Assembly (NCBI GenBank): GCA_022821645.1
Contig: JAJEDE010000015.1
Span: 124,001-188,000 of the forward strand
Direction of reading: 5' to 3'
Length of the DNA: 64,000 nucleotides
Origin: Chloroflexota bacterium
GTDB lineage: Bacteria > Chloroflexota > UBA11872
The translations under genes were made by a program, and so were the position numbers. Shown in pieces: positions 33,896-55,207 of the stretch. Within the stretch, counting starts at the first letter, position 1, and each line of letters starts with the position of its first letter. Below the pieces are notes generated by a model. It made no database searches. It was not told the DNA's origin and saw only the letters and a list, made by a program, of their open reading frames with translations.

Positions 33896-35494
<1,599 letters not shown>

Positions 35495-35610: not shown

Positions 35611-36630
35611 TCACCCTGCGTCCAGGACGACTCCGGACAGGACGCTCACGAGCCACCCGCTATGGGCCAAACCTCGGTCCAGGTTGAAGTCGAACCCCGC
35701 CGCAATGGCGGGTGCGGCCGGGAAGTCACTCCTGGAGCCTACGACTTCCGGAATTATGGTCTCGATCAGGGCCAGGGCAGTCACGCCGACGCCCAGCACC
35801 CCGGTTACCAGACCGGTGGTGAGCAGCTTCCGGCCGCGGTCCAGGGTGTGCCATCCCCGGTGGAGGAACAGGATCCCGTAGATCAAGCAGAGCCCGCCCA
35901 CCGCAAATACGCCATACGCGTTAATGTTCATCGGCAGATCCTGAAGGGTCGGAGGATCCAGACCGTCGCGACCGCTCACGATGACCAGTGCGACCACGCT
36001 GAAGCCCACCAGTCCCGAGAGCGTTAGACCAAAGAGGATCAGCGAGCCCACTGTCCGGCCGGGACTCAACCCGAGCGCTTGGCGAACGGCCACGAAAGTT
36101 GCGACCAGCACCCAGACCTCGGTCCCTGCCTCAACGCTCCAGACGAGCGTCCGTACCAGCGACGACGGGAGCACCTCAGCGCCGAAGACTGGCAGGATGA
36201 CTTCCACCAAAGCGAAGGTCGCTAGACGGAACACCGCCGGCGTCTGCGCAAAGGCCAGGGCTCGCGCAAGCGCCCAGAAACTGCACGCCTGGCTGGTCGG
36301 CGCCGCGAGGAGCGTACCGATGGTCCACAGGCCGAGAGTCCAGGCCAGCCACGCGCACACGTGGGCGACTGCGTTGAGTCCAATACTCGGGATTGCGAAC
36401 GGCGCAACCACGCCGCCGACAATGGCCGTGGCTTCGGACTCTGCGGTTTGCAACGTGTGGATGGAGAGCGTGCCCCAGGAGAGACTGGAGGCAACAGCCG
36501 TGATCAGGATGATGACCACCGCCTGCCGTGTGCTACCGCTGGCGGCCGCGACCTCGCGGTACAGAGCCGGGTCTAGCCGCAGGGCGCGGACGAATCGGGT
36601 ACCAAGACCGTCGCGACCGCCGCTATCCAC
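35611..36630 (-). CDS. Yip1-like membrane protein, array member A
   Basis: This 339-residue protein has an N-terminal tail with FVRALRLDPALYREVAAASG (about residues 13-32) and about six hydrophobic helices. The segment FWALARALAFAQTP (about 117-130) matches the ARxLAFAQ[TA]P pattern shared by the array and resembles the RVLxYAxAP helix of Yip1-domain proteins. It ends with the shared motif GFDFNL (about 312-317). It is longer than the other members, with an extra loop and helix near 225-285. A GTG at 36630 is the start. Function unknown; Yip1-like proteins in bacteria are uncharacterised integral membrane proteins. Confidence 0.75.
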   Translation of the reverse strand: MDSGGRDGLGTRFVRALRLDPALYREVAAASGSTRQAVVIILITAVASSLSWGTLSIHTLQTAESEATAIVGGVVAPFAIPSIGLNAVAHVCAWLAWTLGLWTIGTLLAAPTSQACSFWALARALAFAQTPAVFRLATFALVEVILPVFGAEVLPSSLVRTLVWSVEAGTEVWVLVATFVAVRQALGLSPGRTVGSLILFGLTLSGLVGFSVVALVIVSGRDGLDPPTLQDLPMNINAYGVFAVGGLCLIYGILFLHRGWHTLDRGRKLLTTGLVTGVLGVGVTALALIETIIPEVVGSRSDFPAAPAIAAGFDFNLDRGLAHSGWLVSVLSGVVLDAG

Positions 36631-36695
36631 GAAAGTCCACGTCCTTCTCGTGCAATCCGTCGATCATCGACCCGTCGCCGGCTAGCAGACGAACG

Positions 36696-37574
36696 TCAAG
36701 GTGAGCCGGCGAGCATGTCGACGGTGCGGTAGAACGACATAAGGTTCAGACGAAAATTAAGATTAAAGTCAAGGCCAAAGGCGGCAGATTGTGCGCCGCT
36801 GGACACAACCGACGGTGGAGCCGTGCCGCCGGACTCGGGTGCGTTTGGTGCCGACCACCACCACCATGCGGAATCGAGAAAGGCAGGCTCGGTGCCAATC
36901 GCCACGGCGATCACGGTCACGAGGACCAACACGAAACCCAGCGCTAGCGCGACAAAGGCGCCCACAGTGATGAGCGCACCCAGAGCCCGGCCGCTGCTCA
37001 GCCCCAGTACTTCGCGAACGGCCTGATAAGTTCCGATGAGCACCAGGACGAGGAACGCTGACCGAGCAATATCTGCAAAGAGGCCGAGAAGGATTCCTAT
37101 GCCCACGAGCCCTGCGGGTGCCAGAAATAGCCAACCCACAACGGCGAGGACGGCGACCAGCCCACCGACAATGGCCGGCGTCTGCGCAAACGCGAGTGCC
37201 CGGGCGACCTGTCGGAGACCCGGTGACTGGCCACCCGCCGCGGTCCAGCGCTTGCCGATCGCCCACAGACCAGTGGCCCAGATTGGCCAGGCGGCTATGT
37301 GGGCGATGATGATGGATCCGGCCAGACCAGTCGCTACGTCCTTAACGACCCCTCGGCTCTCGTGGACGTCTGACCAACCAAACCAGGTATTCGTCCAGTA
37401 GGTGGCGATCGACGTTCCATGGAATAGCCCCGTGCTCACGGCCGCAAGCAGCAGCACCAACGCCGCCTGCCAGGTGCTGCCGCCGGGGGCCGACACTTCT
37501 CGGTAAATCGTCGGGTCCAGGCGCAGGGCGCGGAGCATTTGACCGCCAAGAGAGCTGGTTGCCCGTGCGTTCAT
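36696..37574 (-). CDS. Yip1-like membrane protein, array member B
   Basis: This 292-residue member starts MLRALRLDPTIYREVSAPGGSTWQ at about residue 13 onward and has about six membrane helices. The family helix is LRQVARALAFAQTP (about 121-134), followed later by AVREVLGLSSGRALGALI (about 185-202) and the C-terminal LDFNLNF (about 269-275). ATG at 37574. It is divergent from the lactonase-like gene, with about 157 bases between starts, and reads towards member A after a 65-base gap, so A and B may be one operon. Confidence 0.75.
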   Translation of the reverse strand: MNARATSSLGGQMLRALRLDPTIYREVSAPGGSTWQAALVLLLAAVSTGLFHGTSIATYWTNTWFGWSDVHESRGVVKDVATGLAGSIIIAHIAAWPIWATGLWAIGKRWTAAGGQSPGLRQVARALAFAQTPAIVGGLVAVLAVVGWLFLAPAGLVGIGILLGLFADIARSAFLVLVLIGTYQAVREVLGLSSGRALGALITVGAFVALALGFVLVLVTVIAVAIGTEPAFLDSAWWWWSAPNAPESGGTAPPSVVSSGAQSAAFGLDFNLNFRLNLMSFYRTVDMLAGSP

Positions 37575-37731
37575 CGCGTCTTCTCGCGGCTTCCGGCGCA
37601 GACTCGGCGCGAGTATCGCACCCGGAGTCAGATCGGCTGCCTACCGGGAAGCCGTCTTTCGGCCGCATGTTTGACAAGTCGTCGCGGTTTGATTCCAATA
37701 CCGAGGCCGGAGTTCTATCGGCGGCGCCCCT

Positions 37732-38793
37732 ATGTCCAACCAGTACCTGGCCTTCATCGGCACCTACACCACCGGTGCCAGCGAAGGCATTTACACCTAT
37801 CGGTTCGATGCGGGTACCGGCGCGCTCGAGCGCCTGAGCGTTATCGGCGGCATTTCCAATCCGTCGTGGGTGGAGGTCTCGCCGTCAGGCCGGAATCTCT
37901 ACGCCGTCGGTGAGGAATCGCATGGCGTCATCAAGGCCTACGCCATCGACCCTTCCACCGGCGCCCTGACCTACCTGAACGAGCAACTCACGGGCGGCGA
38001 GGTTCCCTGCCACATCAGCGTGGATCCCACGGAGTCGTATGCGCTATTGGCCAACTACGGCAGCGGCAGCGTGGCCATGCTGCCGATCCAGGCGGACGGA
38101 AGCCTGGCTCCGCTGACCGGTTTCGTTCAGCACCAGGGATCCAGCATCCACCCCGTGCGTCAGACCGGGCCGCACGCCCACTCGATCATTCTGGACGCCG
38201 ACAACGGCCGCGCCTTCGCCCCCGACCTCGGCATCGACAAGCTCCTCGTCTATGACCTCGATCTGGACAACGGCACGCTGGCGCCCCACCACGTCCCCTG
38301 GGTCCGCACCCCGGCCGGTGCCGGACCACGGCACTTCGACATCCACCCCAACGGCCAATACGCCTACCTCATCAACGAACTTGCGTCCTCCATCACCGTC
38401 CTGCGCTATTACGCGGACCTGGGCGTGTTCGGCGAAATCGAGACCGTCAGCACCCTGCCCGACGACTTCGACGGCGAGACCACCTGCGCCGACATCCACG
38501 TCGCGCCCTCGGGCAAGTTCGTCTACGGCTCCAACCGCGGCCACGACAGCATCGCCATGTTCGCCATCGACCAGGCCACCGGCCGCCTCACCAGCCTCGG
38601 CCATGAGTCCACCCAGGGCCAAACCCCCCGCAACTTCGCCATCGACCCCTCCGGCACCTGGCTCCTCGCCGCCAACCAGGACACCAGCACCATCGTCACC
38701 TTCCGCATCGACTCCCAAACCGGACACCTCCACCCCACCGGCCAGGTAACCAACATCCCCAACCCCGTCTGCATCAAGCTCCTGCCGGTCTGA
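37732..38793 (+). CDS. Lactonase-like seven-bladed beta-propeller protein (YbhE/Pgl family)
   Basis: The 353-residue product belongs to the lactonase family related to 6-phosphogluconolactonase YbhE. Repeating blade motifs are seen: NPSWVEVSPSGRNLYAVGE (about residues 43-61), CHISVDPTESYALLANYGSGS (about 93-113), HSIILDADNGRAFAPDLGID (about 148-167), GPRHFDIHPNGQYAYLINE (about 196-214), TCADIHVAPSGKFVYGSNRG (about 250-269) and RNFAIDPSGTWLLAANQD (about 300-317). It could hydrolyse a sugar lactone; in this context, without pentose phosphate genes, that is unproven. Two decayed copies of its 3' end follow further along the array. Confidence 0.88.
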   Translation: MSNQYLAFIGTYTTGASEGIYTYRFDAGTGALERLSVIGGISNPSWVEVSPSGRNLYAVGEESHGVIKAYAIDPSTGALTYLNEQLTGGEVPCHISVDPTESYALLANYGSGSVAMLPIQADGSLAPLTGFVQHQGSSIHPVRQTGPHAHSIILDADNGRAFAPDLGIDKLLVYDLDLDNGTLAPHHVPWVRTPAGAGPRHFDIHPNGQYAYLINELASSITVLRYYADLGVFGEIETVSTLPDDFDGETTCADIHVAPSGKFVYGSNRGHDSIAMFAIDQATGRLTSLGHESTQGQTPRNFAIDPSGTWLLAANQDTSTIVTFRIDSQTGHLHPTGQVTNIPNPVCIKLLPV

Positions 38794-38979
38794 ACATCGC
38801 AAGGATCGGTCGGATTGGCGTCTATGTTCGAGATGCGCGGCTTATTGACCCGTTCTTCAACTCGCTGACCGTTGGCGGGTAGAACAGGCTCGGACTAGAC
38901 CTCGGTCTGACATACAGGCGCTGAGCACAGCCCTGACTCGTAGATGCAGCACCCGGCCGAGAAAGACACGGAGGGGTTG

Positions 38980-39912
38980 CTACGACCCACCAGCGAAAAC
39001 CCGCATGAAGCCGTCGATGAGTCCAAGGTTGAAGTCGAAACTAAGGGCTACGGGCAAGGCATGCTCAATCGAAAAGGTGGCCAGGGGTCCGGATCCGCCG
39101 ATTCCAAGGAATGAACCACTTGAAAGCGCCGGATTGAACGTCCAAGGTGGCGAAGGGACGGCGAGCGCAATCGCCGTTGCCAAAACACCCAGGAGCACGG
39201 CGACGGCGACACCGGCGGCCAGCATCGCGCCAAGCGTTCGGCCATTGCTCAGGCCCAGCGACTCGCGAACGGCAAGATAGGTCCCGATCAGCACCCACCC
39301 GGCGATTAACGACCGGAAGCCGGAGTCGAGTGACGGCGGAAGTTGCCAGGCCACAAAACCCCAGCGTGCGATATCGGTCGCAGGATCGGTGGCCAGGCCG
39401 ATGATCGGTACGAAGGCGCGAACGAAAACCGGCGTGAGAATGAGAAACAGGCCCGGCGCCTGCGCAAACGCAAGGCTGCGTGCGACTGACCCGAACCGTG
39501 GCGTCTGACCGCCGGCTGACACCAGACGCCCGCCAATGATCCACAGCGCCGCGGCCCACACGGGCCAGGCTGCCAGGTGCACGGCGGCGTGTAGCGCGGC
39601 GATGGGCAGCGTTTCGTCCACAAACGTGTACCACAGGAGGAGCTCGGTTCGACGTTCAAATGGCGCGACTCTCAACATGGAGAGCAAGGTCCGGCCGCTT
39701 TCGCCAAGACCCGCGCCGACCGCCGCAAGCATCACGATGAGCACCGCCTGCCGCGTGCTGGCGCCGGGTGCCGATACCTCGCGGTAGAGGTCTGAATCCA
39801 GGCTCAGAGCGCGAATCGTTCGACGAAGAAAACCGCCGCCGCTTCGTGTCTGCACGGTCGGCTCCGCTCGGTGCCGGGAGTCCTCCCCAGCGGGGTGATC
39901 GGTGTTATCCAC
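38980..39912 (-). CDS. Yip1-like membrane protein, array member C
   Basis: This 310-residue member has a 30-residue polar head, then TIRALSLDSDLYREVSAPGA (about 32-51), about six helices, the family pattern SVARSLAFAQAP, VRESLGLSNGRTLGAML and the ending SFDFNLGL. Shared with F but no other member are ALWIIGGRL and the late IPSPP-like/FLGxGGxGP segments (here VPSPPW and FLGIGGSGP), so C and F are sister copies. A GTG at 39912 overlaps the end of D by 8 bases; a TTG at 39918 would give 14, matching the F/G overlap. Probably co-transcribed with D. Confidence 0.75.
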   Translation of the reverse strand: MDNTDHPAGEDSRHRAEPTVQTRSGGGFLRRTIRALSLDSDLYREVSAPGASTRQAVLIVMLAAVGAGLGESGRTLLSMLRVAPFERRTELLLWYTFVDETLPIAALHAAVHLAAWPVWAAALWIIGGRLVSAGGQTPRFGSVARSLAFAQAPGLFLILTPVFVRAFVPIIGLATDPATDIARWGFVAWQLPPSLDSGFRSLIAGWVLIGTYLAVRESLGLSNGRTLGAMLAAGVAVAVLLGVLATAIALAVPSPPWTFNPALSSGSFLGIGGSGPLATFSIEHALPVALSFDFNLGLIDGFMRVFAGGS

Positions 39913-40696
39913 TGACAAATGGAATGAGACGGAACAGATAGCCCATCACCGCGCTGCCGAAGTCAAGGCCCAGATTGAAGTCAGACCCCGACGCAACGTC
40001 AAAGCCGGAGGGAGTCCCACGCCAATAGGCGGTTGCGTAGTCGAGGTTCCCGCCGCGAGCTACCGAGGTGACCGCGGCCCCCACCAGCACCGCGACGATG
40101 CCGGCTCCAACGCCGGCGCCGCACAAGGTGACCAGGGTGCGGCCGTTGCGTAGTCCCAAGACCTCGCGCGTAGCCAGAAAGGTCCCTATGAGGACCCAGA
40201 CGGCGACCACGCTCCAAACACTGGAGGCCAGCAGCCCCAAAGGTGCTTCGCCCACGCCGTCGGGGTCGACGCGTCCGAGCCAAAAGGCTCCCGCCATGAT
40301 CGGAATCACGACCACAGACGCGACGGGCGTCTGCGCGAATGCCAGGACACGGGCGACAGCCCGAAATCCCGGCGCCCGGTCGGATCGGGTCATGCGCCGA
40401 CCAATGGCCCAGACTCCGGCCGCCCACACCGGCCAGGCCATTACCTGCGCAACGGCGCTAAACAGGACCATGACGTCTACCTCGGCCATCGGCGAGTCCA
40501 TGCCCACGAGCGCTGGTTCGTTCCGTTCAATGAAATGAAATGTCCTGGCGCCCCATGCAATTCCTGAAGCTGCGGAAGTGAGGACAACAATCAGTACGGC
40601 TTGATAAGTACTGTTATCTGCGGTGGCGACTTCCCGATACAGCGTCGGATCCAGCCTCAGGGCCCGATACAGCCTGCTGATGAAGCTGTCCTCCAT
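39905..40696 (-). CDS. Yip1-like membrane protein, array member D
   Basis: The 263-residue product starts MEDSFISRLYRALRLDPTLYR and has about five or six helices. The family helix is AVARVLAFAQTP (about 107-118). GAFWLGRVDPDGVGEAPLGL (about 132-151) is nearly identical in G and absent from the others, which makes D and G sister copies. It ends with SDFNLGLDFGSAVMGYL. ATG at 40696. Its stop is inside the start of C. Note that the bases upstream (near 40730-40745) resemble those upstream of member E, so D and E may share a promoter element. Confidence 0.75.
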   Translation of the reverse strand: MEDSFISRLYRALRLDPTLYREVATADNSTYQAVLIVVLTSAASGIAWGARTFHFIERNEPALVGMDSPMAEVDVMVLFSAVAQVMAWPVWAAGVWAIGRRMTRSDRAPGFRAVARVLAFAQTPVASVVVIPIMAGAFWLGRVDPDGVGEAPLGLLASSVWSVVAVWVLIGTFLATREVLGLRNGRTLVTLCGAGVGAGIVAVLVGAAVTSVARGGNLDYATAYWRGTPSGFDVASGSDFNLGLDFGSAVMGYLFRLIPFVSG

Positions 40697-40831
40697 CGCC
40701 CGTCTGCCTCGCTCCCGCGCCGCCTCTGCCGGTCAGTCTGTCACGCGCGGACCTCCGATGCCGCGTTGCCTCACCGATCCTCTGGACCCCGCCAACGAAG
40801 TTGAATTTGATCGATTCGCTCCGGGCGCTAA

Positions 40832-41023
40832 TCGGACGGCCACGACAGCCTCGCCAATTTCGCCATCAACTCCTCCGGCGCCTGGCTCCTCGCCGCCAAC
40901 CAGGACACCAGCACCGTCGTCACCTTCCGCATCCACCCCCAAACCGGCCACCTCCACCCCACCGGCCAGGTAACCAACATCCCCAACCCCGTCTGCATCA
41001 AGCTCCTGCCGGTCCAGTCGTAG
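40832..41023 (+). pseudogene. Remnant of the lactonase-like gene, 3' end with a 75-base deletion
   Basis: In one frame this reads SDGHDSLANFAINSSGAWLL and on to IKLLPVQS and a stop. Bases 40856-41014 match 38632-38790 of the intact gene at 151 of 159 positions by my count. Just upstream, 40838-40855 match 38539-38556. The 75 bases between (38557-38631) are missing; in the intact gene this stretch is bounded by the direct repeat TTCGCCATCGACC at 38560 and 38635, so slippage or recombination explains the loss. A stop codon precedes the fragment and no start is present, so it is not a gene. Confidence 0.85.
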
Positions 41024-41135
41024 TTGATCCGCGCATCGCTGGCACCATCGACGGCGCATTGGTTCGCCTTGAGGCTGTTGAAGGGCGGATTGGACCGGGC
41101 TATCCCGGGATGCGCTGAATCCGAGGTCTTCTTCG

Positions 41136-41978
41136 CTACGGGATGATTGCAGGCGCGAGCGGCGCGACGAATTCCATCACCAGGCTGCTGAGGCCCAGGC
41201 CAAGGTTGAACTCGAACCCTTGCGCGGCTGGGATCCCGAATCCGTAGGCAAACAGCCAGGGGCCGGCCCAGACATCTCTATCGGGCCAGTCAGGGTAGAG
41301 GTCAAATACCGTCGCCACGATCTTGGAAACAAGAATGATCGCGACAGTGGCCATCCCCAGCAGCACCGCATTGGCAACTCCCGCAGCGAAGATCGTGCCC
41401 AGGGTTCGTCCGGTGCTCAGCCCCAAAATCTGACGCACAACAAGAAACGTCCCAACCAGCACCCAGGCCGACAGCAGCGTCCGCACCGTGCCCGCCAGCA
41501 GCAACACGTTTGCCGTCCGTGACCCAATCCTCAGGGGCTCAGGGTCCGCCGGTAAGACCCACTGGAGCATGAGCAACAGCGGGACCAAGACGCCCAACGC
41601 GCCCGGCGCCTGTGCGAACGCGATAGCGCGGGCCGTCTGGCCGAAATCCCGCGCCTCGCAATCGCTCGTCGCCAGCCACTTACCGGCCAGCCGGATCAGG
41701 CCCGCCCAAAGCGGCCAGGCCAACAGATGCACAATCGCCACGAAAACCGCGTAGAACACGAACCGCAGCAGGTCCCCCTCAAACGTCGTGTCCCGTCCAG
41801 TTCCCCAGGCCAATGGCAACGTCGAGACCGCGCCCAGGGCGGCGCCGGTTCCCAGCGCCGCGAGCGCCACCACAGCCGCGGCGTGACGAGTGCTGGCGCC
41901 GGGGGCCGCGACTTCGCGCCAGAGCGTCGCGTCCAGCCGCAGGGCCCGCAGCATCCGGCCGATCAGACCATGGCTCAT
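41136..41978 (-). CDS. Yip1-like membrane protein, array member E
   Basis: This 280-residue member stands alone rather than in a pair. It starts MSHGLIGRMLRALRLDATLW (Tyr of LYREV is Trp here), has about six helices, the family segment QTARAIAFAQAPGALGVLVP (about 109-128), ILGLSTGRTLGTIFAAG (about 187-203) and the end FEFNLGLGLSSLVM, where Asp of the C-terminal motif is Glu. ATG at 41978. The next gene to the right is the plus-strand nuclease, and a partner Yip gene may have been lost or replaced there. Confidence 0.75.
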   Translation of the reverse strand: MSHGLIGRMLRALRLDATLWREVAAPGASTRHAAAVVALAALGTGAALGAVSTLPLAWGTGRDTTFEGDLLRFVFYAVFVAIVHLLAWPLWAGLIRLAGKWLATSDCEARDFGQTARAIAFAQAPGALGVLVPLLLMLQWVLPADPEPLRIGSRTANVLLLAGTVRTLLSAWVLVGTFLVVRQILGLSTGRTLGTIFAAGVANAVLLGMATVAIILVSKIVATVFDLYPDWPDRDVWAGPWLFAYGFGIPAAQGFEFNLGLGLSSLVMEFVAPLAPAIIP

Positions 41979-42229
41979 CGCCGCCGCTTCCCCCTCAGCG
42001 CGCAGCTTCTAGCGATCAGTCTGTCATGCGAAACCGTGCGCGGCCCGCATTTGAGTGGCTTCGCGCCGAGAACCGGCTCGGCGACCGCAGCGGTTCCGTC
42101 TCGAATCGAGCGGGCGGCGGGGACAGTGCTCCCTGGTGAGACCGTTGCGTTACCCTCCGTCACTCCCTCGAAGTCGGGAATCCAGGCACCGGACCTCCTG
42201 ATCCGAAACGAGTTACGCAGAGGCTTCCA

Positions 42230-43246
42230 ATGGACGAAGTGAAGATCTGGGCGCTCGATGGTGACTCGAAAGTCACGCCCTTGGTGTCCAGGGACCAGAC
42301 GGATACGGAGTCCTTGCTGGAGGAGACGCTTGTCAGGAACCCCGACCTGCTGATTCCGGGACTGAGGCTCGTCGGCCGACAGACGCCGACCGACGGCGGG
42401 CCGCTCGATCTGCTCGGAGTGGATGAGGACGGCCGGCTGGTCGTGTTCGAGTTGAAGCGCGGGACGCTATCGCGGGACGCCGTTGCGCAGATCATCGACT
42501 ACGCCTCCGACCTGGACGCCAAGACCGACGTTGCATTGGCCGAACACATCGCCGCCAACTCCGGCGTGGGCGGCATCGATCGCATAGAGGACTTCGAAGA
42601 GTGGTATGGCGAGAACACCGACGGCCAGGGCCTCGACTCCCTCAGGCCGCTGCGCCTGTTCCTGATCGGCTTGGGAGCCGACGAAAGGACCGAGCGGATG
42701 GTGCGATTCCTCGCCGCCAACACCGGCATGGATATCTCCTTGCTGACGTTCCACGGCTTTGCCTACGACGGCAAGACGTTGCTTGCCAGGCAGGTGGAAG
42801 TGGAGCCCGGCCCTCCCCCTCGAAGGAGACCGAACGCGGAGGAGAGAAGAGAGCGGCTAAAGAAAAAGATAGAAGACTCCGGCATGTCCGAGACCTTCAG
42901 CGCCGTGGAGCGCATGTTCGAAACGAATTGGCCCGGATTCAGCACAAACCCGACGAGCTTGGGGCTAAGTATTAGATTCAAGAACCGGTCATTTGCACGC
43001 ATCGATCCATGGAAGGGGCACGTGACGATAGTCTTCTTCGGCCGCGCAAAGACACTCTGCCTGGACGAGTTCAGGCAGCTGGTACAGGAAATCCGATACG
43101 AGACATACCCGAGGAATCGAGACCCGTTGGATCCCAGAGCCGAGCTCAAGTTCCCATTCACCGCCGACGAATGGAAGCAACACAAGGACCGCCTGTCCGC
43201 GCTAACGTCGGCGGTATACGAAGCCTGGAATAACAGCGGCCAATAG
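42230..43246 (+). CDS. NucS-like PD-(D/E)XK nuclease-domain protein
   Basis: The 338-residue protein has an N-terminal nuclease domain of the DUF91/NucS type. Likely active-site residues are Asp60 in GGPLDLLG, Glu74 and Lys76 in VFELKRG, and Gln87 in AQIIDYASD. The C-terminal half (about 200-338) is predicted soluble with a KFPFTADEWKQHKDRL end and could be a DNA- or partner-binding domain. NucS itself acts in mismatch repair or on branched DNA; this protein is only a relative. The gene uses more ATA, AGA, AGG and AAA codons than its neighbours, which suggests transfer. It sits alone inside the Yip array. Confidence 0.75.
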   Translation: MDEVKIWALDGDSKVTPLVSRDQTDTESLLEETLVRNPDLLIPGLRLVGRQTPTDGGPLDLLGVDEDGRLVVFELKRGTLSRDAVAQIIDYASDLDAKTDVALAEHIAANSGVGGIDRIEDFEEWYGENTDGQGLDSLRPLRLFLIGLGADERTERMVRFLAANTGMDISLLTFHGFAYDGKTLLARQVEVEPGPPPRRRPNAEERRERLKKKIEDSGMSETFSAVERMFETNWPGFSTNPTSLGLSIRFKNRSFARIDPWKGHVTIVFFGRAKTLCLDEFRQLVQEIRYETYPRNRDPLDPRAELKFPFTADEWKQHKDRLSALTSAVYEAWNNSGQ

Positions 43247-43273
43247 CAGGCTGCGGACCTGGGGCCCGGCAAG

Positions 43274-43353
43274 CCAAACCGGCCACCGTCAACCCCACCG
43301 GCCCTCAAACCCAAACCCCCAACCCCGTCTGCATAAAACTCCTGCCGGGTTAG
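43274..43353 (+). pseudogene. Second, shorter remnant of the lactonase-like gene 3' end
   Basis: This 80-base piece reads AKPATVNPTGPQTQTPNPVC then IKLLPG and a stop in the lactonase frame. It aligns with the last 80 bases of the intact gene (38714-38793) at roughly four fifths of positions and ends at an equivalent stop codon. It is more diverged than the remnant at 40832-41023, so it is probably the older copy. It starts about 28 bases after the nuclease stop and lies at the same place relative to F/G as the intact gene does relative to C/D. Confidence 0.75.
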
Positions 43354-43474
43354 GGAGGTCCTGCACCAAGCCGGACGCATACAACGCTGCATGCGTGCGC
43401 ACCGGATGGATACACGCGCACTTTCGGCGCGCGCTCCATAGCCCCGCGCGCAGTGGTTTCGCCTGTGGAAGCGC

Positions 43475-44446
43475 CTAAGGGAAATACCTGAAGGAGAATG
43501 GGTTATGGACGGAGACTATGAAGGCGTCAACGAGTCCGAGATTGAAGTCAAGCCCAGCGGTAATCCCCAGCGGGGGCTGCACCGCGAGAATCACCACCGG
43601 CCCTTCGCCTCCGACCCCAAGGAAGTCGCCACGGTCATACTCCGGTCCAAACTCAAAGGGTGGTGAGGGGATAGCTAGGAAAGCTGTGGTCGCAAGGACT
43701 CCCAATAGAATCGATATTGCTACGCCGGCAAGTACGAGTGCGCCCAGGGCGCGAAAGTTGCTCAGCCCAAGCGTTTCGCGCAGGGCCAGAAAGGTTCCAA
43801 TCAGAACCCAGGCCGAAACCAGCGTCCGACCGCCGAACTCAAGCGTCCGCAATTGAGACATGTCAAGGATTATCGGGCTGCCGGGTTCGGATCCGGAGGC
43901 CGCGGCAAACCAGACGATCGGGACGGCGATTCGGATAAGCATCGGACTGAGAAGCAGAAAAACAGCCGGCGCCTGGGCGTAGGCAAGAGCACGTGCGACT
44001 GACCAGTACCCGGCGGACTGGTCGTTTGACGACGCCAAGCGCCCACCGATGATCCACAGGGCGGAGGCCCACACGAGCCAGGCGACTAGGTGAGGGACGG
44101 CGCTGAGGACGGCTATCGGGACCGCTTCGCGCCAAAATAAGGTCAAGACATATCCTGTCCACTCCTCCAGATCTCGCAGCACAAACGTGTCGAGCAGGAC
44201 CCGGGCGCTTCCACCCAGGCCAGCGCCTACAGCAGCGAGTAGCACCACTAGCGTCGCCAGTCGACTGCTGGCTCCTGGCGTCGCCACCTCGCGGTACAGG
44301 GCAGGTTCCAGCCGCAGGGCGCGAACAATCCGACCGATAAAGCTGCTGCCCGGTCGTGCGTTCGTGGCACTCCTCGCCCAACTCAGGACGCGAGATCCAA
44401 TTGCGCGTTTGCCACCGCCTGCGTGGCGGGCGCTAGAGCCAGCCAT
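43475..44446 (-). CDS. Yip1-like membrane protein, array member F
   Basis: This 323-residue member has a 35-residue basic head, then IVRALRLEPALYREVATPGA (about 39-58), about six helices, the family segment SVARALAYAQAPAVFLLLSP, LRETLGLSNFRALGALV and the end LDFNLGLVDAF. Shared with C only are ALWIIGGRLAS and a late IPSPPFEF/FLGVGGEGP stretch. ATG at 44446, overlapping the stop of G by 14 bases. Together with G it forms the second copy of the C/D pair. Confidence 0.75.
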   Translation of the reverse strand: MAGSSARHAGGGKRAIGSRVLSWARSATNARPGSSFIGRIVRALRLEPALYREVATPGASSRLATLVVLLAAVGAGLGGSARVLLDTFVLRDLEEWTGYVLTLFWREAVPIAVLSAVPHLVAWLVWASALWIIGGRLASSNDQSAGYWSVARALAYAQAPAVFLLLSPMLIRIAVPIVWFAAASGSEPGSPIILDMSQLRTLEFGGRTLVSAWVLIGTFLALRETLGLSNFRALGALVLAGVAISILLGVLATTAFLAIPSPPFEFGPEYDRGDFLGVGGEGPVVILAVQPPLGITAGLDFNLGLVDAFIVSVHNPFSFRYFP

Positions 44447-45305
44447 GCGACGCTAAACGGAGGAGATAGGCCATCACTGCGCTGCCGAAGCCGAGACCAA
44501 GATCGAAGTCAAAGCCGTACGCAACGTCGAATCCGGAGGGGATGCCGCGCTTATAAGCCGTGTCGGCGAGGCCCCAGCCGGGAGAGATCGCTGCCACGGC
44601 TGCACCCAGCAGTAACGCGACGCTAGCAGCTCCAGCGCCGGCAGCTACCAGAGCGCCCAGCGTCCGTCCATAACTCAGATCCAAGACCTCGCGCGTGGCT
44701 AGAAAAGTTCCTATGAGAACCCAGACGGCGACCGCGCTCCAAGCGCTGGAGGCCAGGAGCCCCAGTGGCGCTTCGCCTCCTCCGTCAGGATCGACACGTC
44801 CGAGCCAAAATGCCCCCGTCATGACGGGGATCATGACCAACAGAATCCCGGGCGCCTGCGCGAAGGCCAACACCCGGGCCACGGTCCGGAATCCCGGCGC
44901 TCGACCGGGGGAGGCTATGCGACCACCGACGGCCCAGACTCCGAAGGCCCACAGCGGCCAGGCGACCACATGAGCAATCGCGCGCAGCGCGGTCTGAAGG
45001 CTGAATTCGGCCATCGGCACATCCAAATGCAGAAGCGCCGGTTCGTAGCTGCTGATGAGGTGGAAACCGTGAGCGCCCCACGCGATGCCCGAAGTCGCTG
45101 CCGTCAGCACAACCACCAGGACCGCCTGCCACGTACTGGCGCCCGGTGCCGCCACCTCGCGGTAGAGACTGGGATCCAGCTGCAGGGCCCGACCGACCCG
45201 CCGAGTCAGACCGCCTGGCGCCGTGGCCTCGCGGTACAAAACAGCGCCCAGCGGAATCGCGTGCGCCGCACGCTCAACACGCCCACCGCCCTGGCTCCTT
45301 GCCAT
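44433..45305 (-). CDS. Yip1-like membrane protein, array member G
   Basis: This 290-residue member is the sister of D, with GAFWLGRVDPDGGGEAPLGL and the end FDFDLGLGFGSAVMAYLLRL. Its head is unusual: it carries a second, partial copy of the family motif, GAVLYREATAPGGLTRRVG, just before the regular RALQLDPSLYREVAAPGAST. The family helix is TVARVLAFAQAPGILLVMIP. The ATG at 45305 follows GAGGGTGG with good spacing and is preferred over a GTG at 45332. It is the first gene of the F/G pair in transcription order. Confidence 0.75.
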   Translation of the reverse strand: MARSQGGGRVERAAHAIPLGAVLYREATAPGGLTRRVGRALQLDPSLYREVAAPGASTWQAVLVVVLTAATSGIAWGAHGFHLISSYEPALLHLDVPMAEFSLQTALRAIAHVVAWPLWAFGVWAVGGRIASPGRAPGFRTVARVLAFAQAPGILLVMIPVMTGAFWLGRVDPDGGGEAPLGLLASSAWSAVAVWVLIGTFLATREVLDLSYGRTLGALVAAGAGAASVALLLGAAVAAISPGWGLADTAYKRGIPSGFDVAYGFDFDLGLGFGSAVMAYLLRLASHGWL

Positions 45306-45349
45306 CGGAGATCCACCCTCTCCGTTGGTCACGCGATTAACGTAGGCGC

Positions 45350-46273
45350 TTACGTCGCCTCGCCCAGCCTCCGCGCCTGCTCAACGATGTTCACGCCCAC
45401 CGTCTCACTCCAGGCGTCGATCAGGCGCGCGAACAATTCGCCGGGGTGGCCGGTGCCGACCTGGGTGCCGTTGACGCGGGTGACGGGTAGCAGGCAGTAG
45501 GGCGTGCTGCTGAGGAAGGCCTCGTCGGCGGTGAAGACGTCGTAGAGGGTCAGGTCGGCTTCGCGGACCTCTACGCCCAGGTCCAGGCTGAGATCGCGGA
45601 CGGTCGAGAGGCTCACGCCGGCCAGGCCGGTACCGGTGCGCGGGGTCAGGATTGCGCCGTCGGACACCACCATGAAATTCGCGCCGGTGGCCTCGGCAAT
45701 GCGGCCCTCCGTGTCCAGCAGCAGCGTGAAGGCGCCGGGCGCCAGGGCGTTGACTTCCTGTTCCGCCAGCGCCAGGAACATGCGGCTGCGCGTCTTCATC
45801 CGCGGGTCCTGCGTGGAGATGTTGACCTGGCGGATCGAGGGCGTCACGCAGTGCGCGCCTTCCTCGTAGGCGCGGTACCAGTACTTGAAACCAAGCTCGT
45901 GCGTCCAGACCAGCACCGACGGCCCGGCGTCGCCGCGCCCCACGCCCGGGAACTGCGGGTGCGAGCCGCGGGTGATGTTGTGGAAGATCCAGGTGTCGCT
46001 GCCCTCAGGCAGGTCCGGGCGGTTGCGCTCCACCACCTCCAGCGTGACCTCGGTCAACTCCTCGGAAGTCAGGCCCGGGTCCAGGCGGCAGTAGTCCAGC
46101 GAGCGGTAGAGCCGGTCGATGTGCTCCTTCAGCTTAAAGGGCTTGCCGCCAAACGTGCGCGTGGCCTCGTAGACGATCTCGCCGTAGATGATCGCCAGGT
46201 CGTTCGGCCAGTAGCGGGCCTCTTCCAGCGGAACAATCTCACCGTTCGAATAGGCCCAGGCGCTCGCGCTCAT
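45350..46273 (-). CDS. Class IV PLP-dependent aminotransferase (branched-chain type)
   Basis: The 307-residue product has fold type IV of pyridoxal phosphate enzymes, the group of branched-chain and D-amino acid aminotransferases. It begins WAYSNGEIVPLEEARYWPND (about residues 6-25) and contains FNxTRGxxP-like HNITRGSHP (about 98-106). The catalytic Lys is probably in DPRMKTRSR (about 160-168). The phosphate and cofactor region reads EATGANFMVV (about 197-206), followed by TPRTGTGLAGVSL, and a late DEAFLSSTPYCLLPV. A member of the IlvE-like group is likely, but the substrate cannot be fixed. ATG at 46273, downstream of the palindrome at 46334-46353. Confidence 0.85.
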   Translation of the reverse strand: MSASAWAYSNGEIVPLEEARYWPNDLAIIYGEIVYEATRTFGGKPFKLKEHIDRLYRSLDYCRLDPGLTSEELTEVTLEVVERNRPDLPEGSDTWIFHNITRGSHPQFPGVGRGDAGPSVLVWTHELGFKYWYRAYEEGAHCVTPSIRQVNISTQDPRMKTRSRMFLALAEQEVNALAPGAFTLLLDTEGRIAEATGANFMVVSDGAILTPRTGTGLAGVSLSTVRDLSLDLGVEVREADLTLYDVFTADEAFLSSTPYCLLPVTRVNGTQVGTGHPGELFARLIDAWSETVGVNIVEQARRLGEAT

Positions 46274-49111: not shown

Positions 49112-49194
49112 CTGTCTGAAGTCCTGGGCGGCCAGCGGTCAAGCCGCAGACCCTAGACTGATTGCCGAGCCTTCGAGTTCGGAGTGGCGCGCCA

Positions 49195-50358
49195 GTGTCC
49201 GCCTGGCTTCGGTCTAGAGTTACAGGAGCGGCGCTGGGCCGGTCGCGACTGGTCCATTGGTGTGCGGCGCTGTTGGTCGTTTCCGTGGGACTTAGTGCGT
49301 GCGCCGACGGCGCAAGGCCAGTTCAGTCGCGTACGCCCGGCTCGTGTTCCATGAGTCCCGAGAACGAGCGGACGGTTCGGGAGGCCTGGACGAACCCTGC
49401 GTTCTGGCGCGCTGCGACGGTCGCCCAGGTGCATGCCGCCTTGGACTGTGGCTCAGACATCCAGGCAACGGATGATCTGGGATTGACACCATTGCATCTT
49501 GCGGCGGCGTATAGCCAGGATCCAGCACTCATCAGAGCGCTGTTGGCCGAGGGCGCACACGTTGAGGCCCGGGACCACGACGGCGGTACTGCGTTGCACC
49601 AGGCGGCAATTTCGGGTCACGAGTCGGTCGCCAACGCCCTGCTCAATAACGGCGCCGACGTCAACGCCCGAGAGAATTTCGGCAAGACTGCGCTGCATCT
49701 CGCCTCGGCCCACAACCCTTCCCCGGGCACGATTGCGTCATTGCTGGAACGCGGCGCTGACATTGAGGCCAGGGACGAGTACGGCTTTACCCCGCTGCAC
49801 TACGCCGCAGGCTATGACAATCGCGTCTCGATCACCGTCTTGCTGGAACACGGCGCCGAGATTGAGGCGAAGGGCGACTCGAGACTTTCGCCCCTACATG
49901 TGGCGGTACGCGACGGCGGATCCGCCGCTGTAGAAGCTCTCCTTGAACAAGGTTCGGAGTCCAACGAGGCGGACAGCCTTGGCGTCACCCCGCTGCATAG
50001 GGCGGCAGCGCGTAGGAATCCAACCATCGTTTCATTACTGCTGGACTACGGCGCCGAGATTGAAGCAAGAAACGTCCAGGGAGAAACGCCTTTGCACGTA
50101 GCGGCGCGTCAGGCCGCCGTGCTTGTCGTCAAGATTCTGCTGAGCCACGGCGCCGACATTGAGTCGAAGGACGATTACGGCAATACTCCGCTTGAAGCGG
50201 CAGCCTTCGGAGGCGACCGCGACACAATGTCGGTTCTGCTGGACCGCGGCGCTGTTGTCGGCGATCTCTACTGGAGCGAACCAACGCTGCGCCAGGTAGT
50301 TGATGAGCTGAGGCCCGACGCCAGGCCAGCGGCTCCCGCCGCATCCGGCGGGACATAG
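49195..50358 (+). CDS. Ankyrin-repeat lipoprotein 1
   Basis: The 387-residue product has a basic head, a hydrophobic helix and a VGLSAC lipobox (Cys36). After a NPAFWRAATVAQVHAALDCG segment come about nine ankyrin repeats of 33-34 residues with clear GxTPLHxAA and LLxxGAxxxAx cores, e.g. DLGLTPLHLAAAYS and EYGFTPLHYAAGYD. The end carries GDRDTMSVLLDRGAVVGDLYW, then a degenerate tail. A surface-anchored or periplasmic-side protein-binding scaffold is likely. The GTG at 49195 follows GGAG and is preferred over a TTG at 49162. A paralogue follows immediately. Confidence 0.85.
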   Translation: MSAWLRSRVTGAALGRSRLVHWCAALLVVSVGLSACADGARPVQSRTPGSCSMSPENERTVREAWTNPAFWRAATVAQVHAALDCGSDIQATDDLGLTPLHLAAAYSQDPALIRALLAEGAHVEARDHDGGTALHQAAISGHESVANALLNNGADVNARENFGKTALHLASAHNPSPGTIASLLERGADIEARDEYGFTPLHYAAGYDNRVSITVLLEHGAEIEAKGDSRLSPLHVAVRDGGSAAVEALLEQGSESNEADSLGVTPLHRAAARRNPTIVSLLLDYGAEIEARNVQGETPLHVAARQAAVLVVKILLSHGADIESKDDYGNTPLEAAAFGGDRDTMSVLLDRGAVVGDLYWSEPTLRQVVDELRPDARPAAPAASGGT

Positions 50359-50377: not shown

Positions 50378-51811
50378 GTGGGAAGCCTAGGACAGCGGCA
50401 GCGGAAGGTCTGCGCGACGCTGCGATGGAGACTAACGCCGCCCGGCCAACTGCTTCTCCTTGGTCTGCTGGCCGTCATGCCGACGGCCTGCGATGGAGCG
50501 TCAACCCCAGAGCCGGCGCCTGCCCAGACTGCAATATCGGCGGCAGCGCCAACCCAGGCAGCGACTCGAACGGCCAGGCCCTCGCCTTCACCAGTTTCAA
50601 CCCCGGAACCGCGTTTGGAGGCCGAAGCAACGCCTTCGACGGCGGCAGCCGCGACCCCGGAAGCCGCGGCGCGTCAGGAGTCCACAGCCGAAGCATGCGC
50701 CGAGCCAGTGGACGAGTCTCGCTGGCTGAGCAAGGCGTTCTGGGTCGCGGCGACTGCAGCCGTCGTGCACGCCGCGTTGGACTGCGGCGCGAGCGTCAGC
50801 GCGACGGACGGCAATGGCTTTACGCCGCTGCATCTGGCGGCGGCGTTTAGCTCGGAGCCTGCTGTCATCGTTGCCTTGATTGAGGCGGGCGCTGACGCTT
50901 TGGCGCAGTCCGGCAGCGGGTTTACTCCGCTCCATGTGGCAGCGGTGAAAAGTCCCGAACCGGAAGTCCTGGCTGTCCTGCTTGATTTTGGCGTTGATCC
51001 CAACGTGCGAAACGACAGGGACTGGACGCCCGCGCACGCGTGGGCGGTCCTTGGCACGCAGCCGGAATCGCTCAAATTGCTGGTGGCGCGCGGCGCTGAC
51101 CTGGAAGCACTGGACGACCAAGGCTTGACCCCGCTGCTGGCCGCCGCCGCCGGCAGCGAGATTCCAGAGAGGGTTGACGAACTGCTGGTTCTCGGGGCCG
51201 ACCTGCAGGCGCGCAGCAATTTCGGCTTTACCGCTTTGCACTGGGCAGCGGCCTCCAACCCCAACCCGGGGATGGTCGAGCTCCTGTTGGAACGCGGCGC
51301 CAACCTGGAAGCGCTGGCCGACAATGGATTAACGGCTCTGCACTGGGGAGTCTCGTTCAACAACGAGCCGTCCGTAGTCGCCGTACTCCTGGACCATGGC
51401 GCAAATCTGGAAGCGCAGGCCGTCTTGAGTGCGACACCGCTGCACTCGGCGGTGGCCTTCGACGCTGATCCGGCTTTGATCCAACTGCTGATCGACCGCG
51501 GCGCGAACCTCGAAGCCCAGATCGTTGGCGGTGGGACGGCTCTGCACCTTGCGGCCTCGGGAGAAGATCCGGCTCTCGCAAGCCTCCTGATCGATGCCGG
51601 CGCCAACCTGGAAGCACGGGCCGACGATGGTTTGACGCCCTTACATTGGGCGGCGGATGCCGGAATCCCAGCCACTGTCACCCTCCTGCTGGGCTATGGC
51701 GCCAATGCCGAAGCGAAAGACAACGACGGCGCCACGCCGCTTGACCTGGCGGAAGCCGCCAACAATCAGGCCACCGCTCGCGTGCTGCGGGACCATGCGG
51801 CGCAGAACTAG
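50378..51811 (+). CDS. Ankyrin-repeat lipoprotein 2
   Basis: The 477-residue product has a signal peptide ending in VMPTAC (Cys38), then a low-complexity Pro/Ala/Thr/Ser linker (about 40-110), then KAFWVAATAAVVHAALDCGA, which matches the same segment of lipoprotein 1. About ten ankyrin repeats follow (GFTPLHLAAAFS, NGLTALHWGVSF, GGTALHLAA, DGLTPLHWAA). It ends after a final repeat without the GDLYW tail of lipoprotein 1. A GTG at 50378 is used; the ribosome binding site is weak. The gene starts 20 bases after the first, so they are likely one transcript. Confidence 0.85.
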   Translation: MGSLGQRQRKVCATLRWRLTPPGQLLLLGLLAVMPTACDGASTPEPAPAQTAISAAAPTQAATRTARPSPSPVSTPEPRLEAEATPSTAAAATPEAAARQESTAEACAEPVDESRWLSKAFWVAATAAVVHAALDCGASVSATDGNGFTPLHLAAAFSSEPAVIVALIEAGADALAQSGSGFTPLHVAAVKSPEPEVLAVLLDFGVDPNVRNDRDWTPAHAWAVLGTQPESLKLLVARGADLEALDDQGLTPLLAAAAGSEIPERVDELLVLGADLQARSNFGFTALHWAAASNPNPGMVELLLERGANLEALADNGLTALHWGVSFNNEPSVVAVLLDHGANLEAQAVLSATPLHSAVAFDADPALIQLLIDRGANLEAQIVGGGTALHLAASGEDPALASLLIDAGANLEARADDGLTPLHWAADAGIPATVTLLLGYGANAEAKDNDGATPLDLAEAANNQATARVLRDHAAQN

Positions 51812-52242: not shown

Positions 52243-54873
52243 TTAGCCGCAGTCGCTGTAGCCGCAGGACACGCATTTCATGCAGCCCTCGGCGTAGTGC
52301 AGCTGGCTGCCGCCGCAGGAGGGGCAGGCGCCCACGAATCCCTGGTCGCGCGCGGCGCCCTCAACGTAGGTCTCGGCCGCCGGCGCCGAACCGCTGCCGA
52401 ACTTCGGCGCGCTCTGGGGAGGCGCCGTCGCGACCGTCGCGGCCGGCTGTTCGGCCGGGTCGGGCGTGTACGTGCCTTCGCCCTGCAGGTCCACCATTGG
52501 GACGAAATCACCGTTCTCGACATGGATCCGCTTGGCCATCGCCTGCGCAATCCCGTCGCCGCACGAAAGCACGCGTTCGGGGCCGAACCCGGCGGGCCGG
52601 TGGCAGGTGATCCCGCGCAGGGTCTTCTGCACCTCTTCGACCGGCACGCCCGAGCGCAGCGCCAGCGATGCCAGCCGGCCAATGGCCTCGGTTTGCGCGG
52701 CCGCGCAGCCGCCGGCCTTGCCAAGGGTCGCGAAGGTCTCGAACGGCAGCCCCCGCTCGTCGTCATTGATCGTGACGAACAGCGGACCGCAACCGGTTCG
52801 GATACGGGTTGTCGTGCCGTGAATCTGGTCGGGCCGCTCGCGTTCCACGGCGGCGACGATCGGCAGCGGCGTGCGGTCGGCGTGCTCGTCCGAGGCGCCA
52901 TTGGTTGCCGGTGTCGGCGTCAGCTTGGGCGCATGGCCGTTGCTGTGGCCATTGACCGGGGTGGCCGCCACAGGCACGGGAACCTCTTCAGCGGGCGCCG
53001 GTGCCTCTTCCGCAGGCGCCTCGGCCTCGGCCACTTGCGGCTCGTCGGACTCGTCGCGGCGCGTCTTGTCGCCCGAGTCGCTGGTGGTCAGCACCTGGAA
53101 GTCGCGGCTGCCGTCGCGGTAGACGGTCACGCCCTTGCAACCCAGTTCATAGGCCCGCCAGTAGCCGCGTTCCACGTCCTCGCGGGTGGCTTCGTGCGGG
53201 AAGTTGATCGTCTTGGACACCGCGTTTTCGGTGTGGGCCTGGAAGGCGCTCTGGATGCGGATGTGCCACTCGGGCGACACGTCGTGAGCCGTCACGAAGA
53301 TGCGGCGGGCCGACTCGGGCACGCCCTCCAGCACCTGCAGGGCGTCTGCCGGCGTCTCGTCGGTGATCCGCAGGCTGCCGTGATTGGCCTCGATGGCGTC
53401 CACCAACTCTTCGCTGAAGAATCCGCGGCGGCGCGCGTACGTCTCGAAAATCGGGTTCACGTAGCGCAGCGTGGTGGCGGCGTTGTCGTCGCTGTCGCGC
53501 ATCACGTTCTTCCAGAAGATCAGCGCAAAGAGCGGTTCAATGCCGCTGGAGGCGTCGGCGATCATGCTGATCGTGCCGGTCGGCGCAATGGTGGTGACCG
53601 TGGCGTTGCGCCGCTCGCCGTGGCCCTTTCGGTCCCAGGCCGAGTTGATGAAATTGGGGAACGCGCCGCGCGCGGCCGCCAGTTCCTCGGAGGCGCGCCG
53701 GCCTTCGTCGTTGATGAACTGCATCACGTCGCTGGCCAGCGCCTCGGCTTCGGGGCTGTCGTAGGGCAGGCCCAGGTGGAACAGCACGTCGGCCCAGCCC
53801 ATCACGCCCAGCCCAACCCGCCGGTTGCCGTGCTTGACGATGGCGTCGATTTCCTCCAGCGGGAAGTTGGAGGCTTCGACCATGTCGTCCAGGAACCGGA
53901 CGGACAGGTGCACGTCGCGCCGCAGGGCGCGCCAGTCAATGCGCGTACGGTCCTCGGTGAGGTGCCAGTTGAGATTCAGGCTGCCGAGCACGCAGGCCTC
54001 GTAGGGCAGCAGCGGCTGCTCGCCGCAGGGGTTGGTGGTGTCCTGCGGCGCAACGTCCGGCGTGGGGTTGGTTCGCTCCAGCCGGTCCAGGAAGATCATG
54101 CCCGGTTCGCCGTTGAGCCAGGCGCCGTCGACCAGGCGCTCCCAGACGTCTCGGGCTCGCAGCCGCTCGGTCACCTCTTCAGTGCGGGGGTTGACCAGGT
54201 CATAGTCGGTGTCGTCGCGCACGGCCTGCATGAAGGCGTCGGTGATGCCGACGGAGATGTTGAAGTTGGCGATGCGGCCGTCCTCGGTCTTGCATTCGAT
54301 GAAGTCGAGGATGTCCGGGTGATCGACGTTGAGAATGCCCATGTTGGCGCCGCGGCGGGTGCCGCCCTGCTTAATCTCGCCGCAGGAGTAGTCGATCATC
54401 GACATGAAGCTGATCGGCCCGCTGGCCACGCCGCCGGAGCTGCGCACAAAGTCGCCGCGCGGGCGGATGCGGGAGAAGTTGAACCCGGTGCCGCCGCCGC
54501 TCTGGTGAATGATGGCCGCGTGCATGTCGGTGGTCTTGATGCTGAGCAGGTCGTCGTCGATGGGCAGCACAAAGCAGGCCGCCATCTGCGCGTAGCCCTG
54601 GGGCTTGCCCGCGTTCATCAGGCAGGGGCTGTTGGGCACGAAGCGCAGCCCGCGCAGCAGGTCGTACATGGAGTCCACGATCTCGTCGTGGCCCTCGGCG
54701 TCCACCCAGCCCCGCTCGCGCTCGACGTCGACAACGCCGCGCACCACGCGGTCAAAGAACTCGTCCGTGTCTTCAATGGGGTGGTCGATGCGGTCCTTCA
54801 GGAAGTAGCGCTTGCGCAGCACGGCCAGCGCGTTATCCGAGAGGTCCGGATACGTTGCGCCGTGGCTATGCAT
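52243..54873 (-). CDS. nrdJ: Vitamin B12-dependent ribonucleotide reductase, class II
   Basis: The 876-residue product reduces ribonucleotides to deoxyribonucleotides with adenosylcobalamin, needing no oxygen. Motifs include [13 protein letters not shown] (about residues 69-81), [32 protein letters not shown] (about 120-135), the active-site [20 protein letters not shown] (about 289-308) and [11 protein letters not shown] (about 434-444). A low-complexity linker (about 600-700) leads to a TSCPxxxR-like redox region and a Cys-rich end [20 protein letters not shown]. There is no N-terminal ATP-cone domain. The ATG at 54873 overlaps the end of a small upstream gene by 8 bases. Confidence 0.95.
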
Positions 54874-55207
54874 AACGCGTCTTTGATGGGACCGAGAATC
54901 GGTAACTCGGTCGCCACCCTCCCCACGTGGCGGAAGGGATCTCCACCAGAGACCCATCCTCGGTATTACCGCGCTCCAGTTCAGTACGAATTTGTCCCAA
55001 TCCTTCGCTTACCAGCGCCTCGTGGGCGCCCCAGGTGCTGGCCGAGTCCTGCGGGAATGCCACGCCCATCGAAAACTCCGTTTCCGCATGCCGCAAGCCG
55101 AAAATCACCAGGTCATACGCTCCGGTGGAGGGGATGATCTCCGCGAAATCGATAGCGAACTGCCGACCGTCGCGCGTCCGATGCAGTTCGCCGAGCAGTC
55201 TGATCAC
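54866..55207 (-). CDS. Small hypothetical protein upstream of nrdJ
   Basis: A 113-residue protein from a GTG at 55207 (MIRLLGELHRTRDGRQFAID). The open frame continues upstream but that part lacks protein-like features. The product is acidic-neutral with a strand-rich middle (EIIPSTGAYDLVIFGLRHAETEFSMG) and ends [14 protein letters not shown] do not recognise the family. Its end overlaps the nrdJ start by 8 bases in another frame, which suggests that the two are co-transcribed and that the small protein could regulate or assist the reductase; that is inference. Confidence 0.5.
   Translation of the reverse strand: MIRLLGELHRTRDGRQFAIDFAEIIPSTGAYDLVIFGLRHAETEFSMGVAFPQDSASTWGAHEALVSEGLGQIRTELERGNTEDGSLVEIPSATWGGWRPSYRFSVPSKTRYA

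Follow-up and report, generated by a model that had tools for sequence, protein, structure and literature searches.

A seven-gene array of Yip1-like membrane proteins in a Chloroflexota genome and its possible behaviour as a variable cassette locus

The eukaryotic YIPF proteins are five-helix proteins of two subfamilies, alpha and beta, which work as pairs such as Yip1p-Yif1p; this is described in PMC6682643, where no function is reported for prokaryotic Yip1 members as of 2019. In bacteria, YknW is the Yip1 protein of the Bacillus YknWXYZ pump, which protects against the SDP toxin (PMC4887032, PMC4338810), and Yip1 genes are contained in bacteriocin clusters (PMC11580447, PMC8534725, PMC10707071). 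Here, an array of seven Yip1-like genes was analysed in a 64,000-nucleotide stretch (the window) of contig JAJEDE010000015.1 from Chloroflexota bacterium assembly GCA_022821645.1, referred to below as genome G000. The array is read, with slightly more confidence than doubt, as a variable cassette locus of Yip1-like membrane proteins in which pairs of genes have been duplicated and exchanged as blocks.

Like the YIPF alpha and beta proteins, the array contains two adjacent subfamilies that evolve in step, with the difference that its pairing is deduced from the genes alone, namely from adjacency in nine of nine cases and from congruent trees. The array also resembles YknW and the bacteriocin-cluster proteins, which are bacterial Yip1 proteins encoded in operons for protection against toxic peptides or their transport. 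YknW and several of the bacteriocin-cluster genes adjoin ABC transporter genes, whereas none was recognised beside the array, where not every open reading frame (ORF) was scanned. Variable effector-immunity arrays, such as type VI secretion system loci, are presumably alike in that their gene sets vary between close relatives, but no toxin gene was recognised here and the array consists of one family of membrane proteins. No Yip1 array is described among the matches listed in the literature on bacterial Yip1, YknW, bacteriocins and stress, nor among those listed on Yip1 in Chloroflexi.

The seven homologous ORFs, A to G, which the preliminary description had presented as minus-strand paralogues with shared motifs, were confirmed in place with all seven reading frames open, and 31 columns are invariant in the alignment of the seven proteins. 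The features of the array, in window positions, are as follows.

35611..36630, minus strand: gene A, Yip1-like, with a longer C-terminal part; on a long branch of no settled position in the tree
36696..37574, minus strand: gene B, Yip1-like, 34.2 bits against PF04893 and over the cut-off; groups with T1-type relatives (92/88, long branch)
37732..38793, plus strand: lactonase gene (PF10282), intact and convergent with C; tail remnants derive from its 3' end
38980..39918, minus strand: gene C, C-type, overlapping D by 14 bases; AlphaFold pLDDT 79.9, pTM 0.77
39905..40696, minus strand: gene D, D-type; AlphaFold pLDDT 84.2, pTM 0.82
40764..40838, minus strand: decayed aminotransferase 3' tail remnant upstream of D, 63% identity over 75 columns
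40837..41014, plus strand: lactonase 3' tail remnant made up of 160 bp at 95% and a 34-bp piece; joined to the aminotransferase tail
41136..41978, minus strand: gene E, single Yip1-like gene, 29.9 bits against PF04893 and over the cut-off; orthologues in G010 and G006
42230..43246, plus strand: NucS_C-domain nuclease gene inside the array, matching the PADLOC candidate family PDC-S11
43274..43348, plus strand: second lactonase 3' tail remnant, 75 bp at 84%; no aminotransferase tail found beside it
43475..44446, minus strand: gene F, C-type, grouping with C and the C orthologues
44433..45332, minus strand: gene G, D-type, grouping with D and the D orthologues
45350..46273, minus strand: upstream aminotransferase-like gene, named by reading and not by Pfam, donor of the other tail

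With the starts of the ORF table, the D/C and G/F overlaps are 14 bases each, and the C-D and F-G segments are collinear at the DNA level over 1262 columns with 68% identity, which agrees well with the earlier remark that the pairs share their order and similar small overlaps. Gene G may begin at GTG 45332, 17 bases from the aminotransferase stop, or at ATG 45305, nine codons inside, either start being possible. The array is interrupted by the plus-strand lactonase and NucS_C nuclease genes. A profile built from the seven proteins found seven places in the 3.55 Mb genome, every one in the array (a wider profile reports A in two pieces, which gives 8 matches).

The block duplication proposed in the preliminary description is borne out by the fused tails of both neighbouring genes. 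By DNA comparison, copies of the lactonase 3' end lie at 40855-41014 (95%) and 43274-43348 (84%) of the window. In five aligned junctions (one each in G000, G001 and G007 and two in G005) the 3' tail of the aminotransferase gene is fused to that of lactonase at one common point, as expected of tandem duplication, where both flanking gene ends meet at a junction with one breakpoint. All five lack the same 75 bp of lactonase, a segment flanked by two copies of a 13-bp repeat. One end of the repeated unit is formed by the final 78 bp of the aminotransferase gene; D and C follow, and the other end is what remains, approximately 180 bp, of the final 255 bp of lactonase. The unit measures approximately 2.3 kb in G005, where each junction contains those 78 bp and the two junctions are 2.3 kb apart. 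The common fusion point together with the common deletion implies that the unit was probably made once, by a join within the two neighbouring genes, and copied later. The second window junction carries the lactonase tail only, the junction of G006 has other breakpoints, and sequence past the lactonase stop is common only to orthologous cassettes.

The sister pairs C/F and D/G were recovered as predicted in a tree of 78 proteins, for which three fragments below 150 aa were left out. Start codons of relatives were assigned by rule, and in alignments A2 and A3 a few rows begin at a non-start codon. F joins C and the three C orthologues at 98/98, and G joins D and the three D orthologues at 98/97, the former grouping being subject to the long-branch warning given below. 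Close orthologues of C and D occur once each in G001, G005 and G007 (88-91%), and E has two (81-82%); none as close was found for A, B, F and G. The preliminary description had held close single-copy orthologues of each gene against its own proposal, and they are present for C, D and E and were not found for the other four. The split of C/D from F/G predates these species. A D-type gene is followed by a C-type gene in 9/9 cases at main-site loci, the orders and type labels of this survey being compiled by hand. Separate C and D trees of nine members each share five of six splits, the differing one weakly supported on both sides (62 and 45), and are congruent with a Mantel r of 0.95, 3 of 20000 shuffles being as good in each test. 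Congruence and adjacency indicate that the pair travels as a unit; linkage alone is sufficient for this and binding is not implied. Over 11 genomes the slot beside the aminotransferase gene shows 4 states and 6 changes, out of a possible maximum of 7 on a weak tree.

The single breakpoint in five junctions and the collinearity of the sister pairs are also what plain tandem duplication and divergence would leave behind, if gene conversion had kept the tail remnants similar to the intact genes. This account, which is considered somewhat unlikely, is confronted with the relative ages of tails and pairs. Pairs within one array show Jukes-Cantor (JC) distances of 0.58-2.01 at four-fold sites, the JC distance of tails to the intact copies in their own genome is 0.05-0.27, and intact genes differ between four species by 0.16-0.28 at four-fold sites. 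The comparison is rough: the tail values derive from local alignment to a constrained gene with all sites counted, their identities were entered by hand and lean towards the high side, and equal age predicts about half of the pair value. On this sequence-based scale, the slots appear to have roughly the age of the species and the pairs to be older. That the pairs look older than the adjoining tails is better explained by older cassettes being exchanged via the flanks, or by tail conversion, than by plain duplication followed by divergence. The earlier idea of amplification under selection is retained for its duplication, while amplification alone as the cause of the array is given up, since the pairs look older than the junction tails.

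One tail is an exception to these young values and favours duplication followed by divergence: the aminotransferase tail of window junction 1, at a JC of 0.52, is approximately as divergent as an old age predicts, while the lactonase tail fused to it stands at 0.05, as if only the lactonase tail had been refreshed. The lactonase tail of the G001 junction, nearest to the gene of G001 itself (87.2%), points the same way. Conversely, the nearest gene is that of another genome for 5/6 lactonase tails and 5/5 aminotransferase tails; the lactonase tail of window junction 1 is 96.3% identical to the gene of G001 and 95.0% to its own. This speaks against recent conversion only. Recent conversion from the genes of the same genome, for which one of six lactonase tails and none of five aminotransferase tails would qualify, is accordingly not favoured. 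Further against plain duplication and divergence, the slot contents vary among congeners, and the two gene copies of a sister-genus genome, described next, are not sisters.

Each of the six sister-genus genomes carries a Yip1-like gene with ribonucleotide reductase on one side and PEPCK on the other, and the same two genes border the array region in the window.

33896..35494, plus strand: PEPCK gene, one border of the region; adjoins the Yip1-like gene in the sister genus
52243..54957, minus strand: ribonucleotide reductase gene; flanks the Yip1-like gene on the other side in the sister genus

Genome G014 of that genus carries a tandem repeat, positions 343-1230 against 1369-2321 of L013 (69%), whose first copy begins within the 3' end of the reductase gene and extends into a 176 bp PEPCK tail (85%). 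Its two copies group with the genes of G017 (100/99) and G013 (99/90), not with each other. In G016 a 125-bp copy of the PEPCK tail (95%) lies beside the single gene, and no such self-repeat was found in the remaining four genomes of the sister genus. Unit turnover is seen in two genera.

A mechanism can be outlined for the favoured reading of a cassette locus with exchange. The ancestral state may have been one Yip1-like gene between ribonucleotide reductase and PEPCK. A D-type and a C-type gene make up a jointly inherited unit. The aminotransferase and lactonase tails would act as homology arms: unequal crossing-over between them would change the number of slots, and recombination with the DNA of other strains would swap divergent pairs into a slot. 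More tentatively, C-type and D-type proteins might form a membrane hetero-oligomer like alpha and beta YIPF, the genus-specific C-terminal tail might face outside, and turnover might be driven by variable outside agents, for example membrane-active peptides.

Several observations weigh against this reading. Gene conversion from the intact genes could keep the tails young, and this is the main alternative. In G005, the D-type genes 7539 and 9762 are separated by 0.58 and the tails stand at 0.12, a small difference in age of about two-fold. The tree program warned of long branches meeting, F (with C and kin) and A among them. A strict two-subunit rule fails in G000, where E has no partner, and in G007, where the type usually paired with E is single. 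The spacer of E in G000 matches neither that of G010 nor that of G006; the idea that E was imported with its own lactonase tail was dropped on the same finding. No exchange event was caught directly among the genomes compared, and in a scan that did not cover every ORF, no gene for a toxin, a transporter or a peptide was recognised next to the array. Finally, a Foldseek comparison gave no match in the PDB at E<=0.001 for the C or D model.

Membership of the Yip1 family, as proposed in the preliminary description, is supported. The cut-off of Pfam PF04893 (Yip1, clan CL0112), 28.6 bits, is passed by B (34.2) and E (29.9), that is, by two of the seven proteins; A, C, D, F and G have no PF04893 match at E<=1. 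In alignment, these five form a single family with B and E, and 31 of 58 aligned relatives match PF04893 at E<=0.001. The AlphaFold models of C and D each predict five long helices, preceded by two short ones at the N-terminus and followed by a tail of lower certainty. The five long helices are as in Yip1, the membrane placement itself being predicted. The difference from Yip1 lies in the five unmatched proteins and in approximately 75 additional C-terminal residues in B and E, where the match ends at residue 213 of 292 and 206 of 280, respectively. Conserved tails outside the Yip1 domain had been claimed for both ends, of which only the C-terminal one holds. The match of B begins at Y24 of YREV, placing this motif inside the Yip1 profile, and a YxEV-like motif occurs in 24/25 relatives outside the genus and 44/53 inside it; judged from these sequences, YREV is ordinary for the family. 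At the C-terminus, [DE]F[ND]L is present in all seven window proteins, as had been described, although the stricter form with any residue and then L, F or I fails in A (DFNLDR). This stricter motif occurs in 34/53 genus members and 0/25 relatives outside the genus. No structural relative found by sequence was convincing (best E 0.17), NCBIfam matched none of the seven proteins, and PADLOC anti-phage models gave no family for C, D and E, the three proteins scanned.

The ratio of nonsynonymous to synonymous substitution (dN/dS) between orthologues is 0.17-0.33 for C and D, compared with 0.04-0.08 for aminotransferase, 0.02-0.05 for PEPCK and 0.09-0.20 for lactonase. Values above those of aminotransferase and PEPCK indicate that the genes are kept but evolve rapidly. 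Positive selection was rejected, pairwise dN/dS being at most 0.60, a maximum from a pair with a dS of 0.011. Identified neighbours at the array are PEPCK, lactonase, NucS_C, aminotransferase and acetyltransferase, the last two by reading. A Pfam scan of 20 proteins, of which 16 came from neighbouring genes at sites outside the genus, brought out no common functional partner; the exceptions are reductase and PEPCK in the sister genus and peptide-permease-like genes at one locus (L100).

The dN/dS ceiling and the lack of a common functional partner among the scanned neighbours of relatives are also in keeping with an ordinary lineage-specific expansion of small membrane transporters or stress proteins under relaxed constraint, in which pairing and exchange would have no special function. 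This account, compatible with either origin of the array, is a genuine possibility that falls short of an even chance: the seven genes are open, the tested orthologues are constrained, and units turn over in two genera. Under the favoured reading of a variable cassette locus, the occurrence of Yip1 proteins in toxin-peptide contexts together with the turnover of the locus suggests tolerance of membrane-active agents, a guess by analogy that is more probably wrong than right. In a wider reading, which appears improbable, the locus would be a polymorphic set of two-subunit Yip1-type receptors or immunity proteins, a bacterial counterpart of YIPF alpha/beta, whose ready-made pairs would be exchanged between strains through the 3' ends of neighbouring housekeeping genes and would let cells of a dense community tolerate their neighbours or be recognised by them. 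Almost no function is known for prokaryotic Yip1 proteins, and this locus combines co-inherited pairs, variation between close relatives and a lineage-specific tail. It makes testable whether bacterial Yip1 proteins act as heteromers like their eukaryotic kin and which forces select new pairs. The tail footprints are a clean example of neighbouring-gene 3' ends marking the edges of a moving block.

The family is present in 27 of 41 genomes of the class. Within the genus it occurs in 10/13 genomes with 3-10 matches each, some of them pieces of one gene, and no match was found in G002, G003 and G004, G003 being only 76% complete. In an even sample of the phylum, 37/151 genomes have the family, the genus included; outside the genus there are 1-3 matches per genome having any (at most 17 candidates were scored per genome, and 94 match-free genomes are not itemised). 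The question raised earlier, whether the family always occurs as arrays, is thus answered in the negative. In G004 the space from aminotransferase to lactonase is instead occupied by the NucS gene and by a gene whose product looks secreted. At a second site (L057-L061), three Yip1-like genes, T1, T2 and T3, lie in five congeners (G005, G001, G007, G006 and G009), and the window genome has no match there.

Since the named relatives are metagenome-assembled genomes, the window genome has 7.13% contamination and G006 has several partial loci and one broken copy, an assembly or binning artefact was considered. It is very improbable, because a single 250-kb contig contains the array together with flanking genes that relatives also have, and the junction breakpoint is common to four genomes.

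The NucS_C gene occurs at varying positions of the locus in G000, G004, G006, G007 and G012. Two adjacent ankyrin-repeat proteins with lipoprotein-like starts, assigned by reading, are encoded at window positions 49162-50358 and 50378-51811, and G004 has similar ones (L093:1361-3983). At the place of the window genes A and B, between PEPCK and lactonase, genes for an ATPase and a DUF4276 protein are found in G004 (L093:12019-13805) and G001 (L049:2367-4153); those of G004 match PADLOC HEC-01A/B, and the G001 pair is assigned by reading only.

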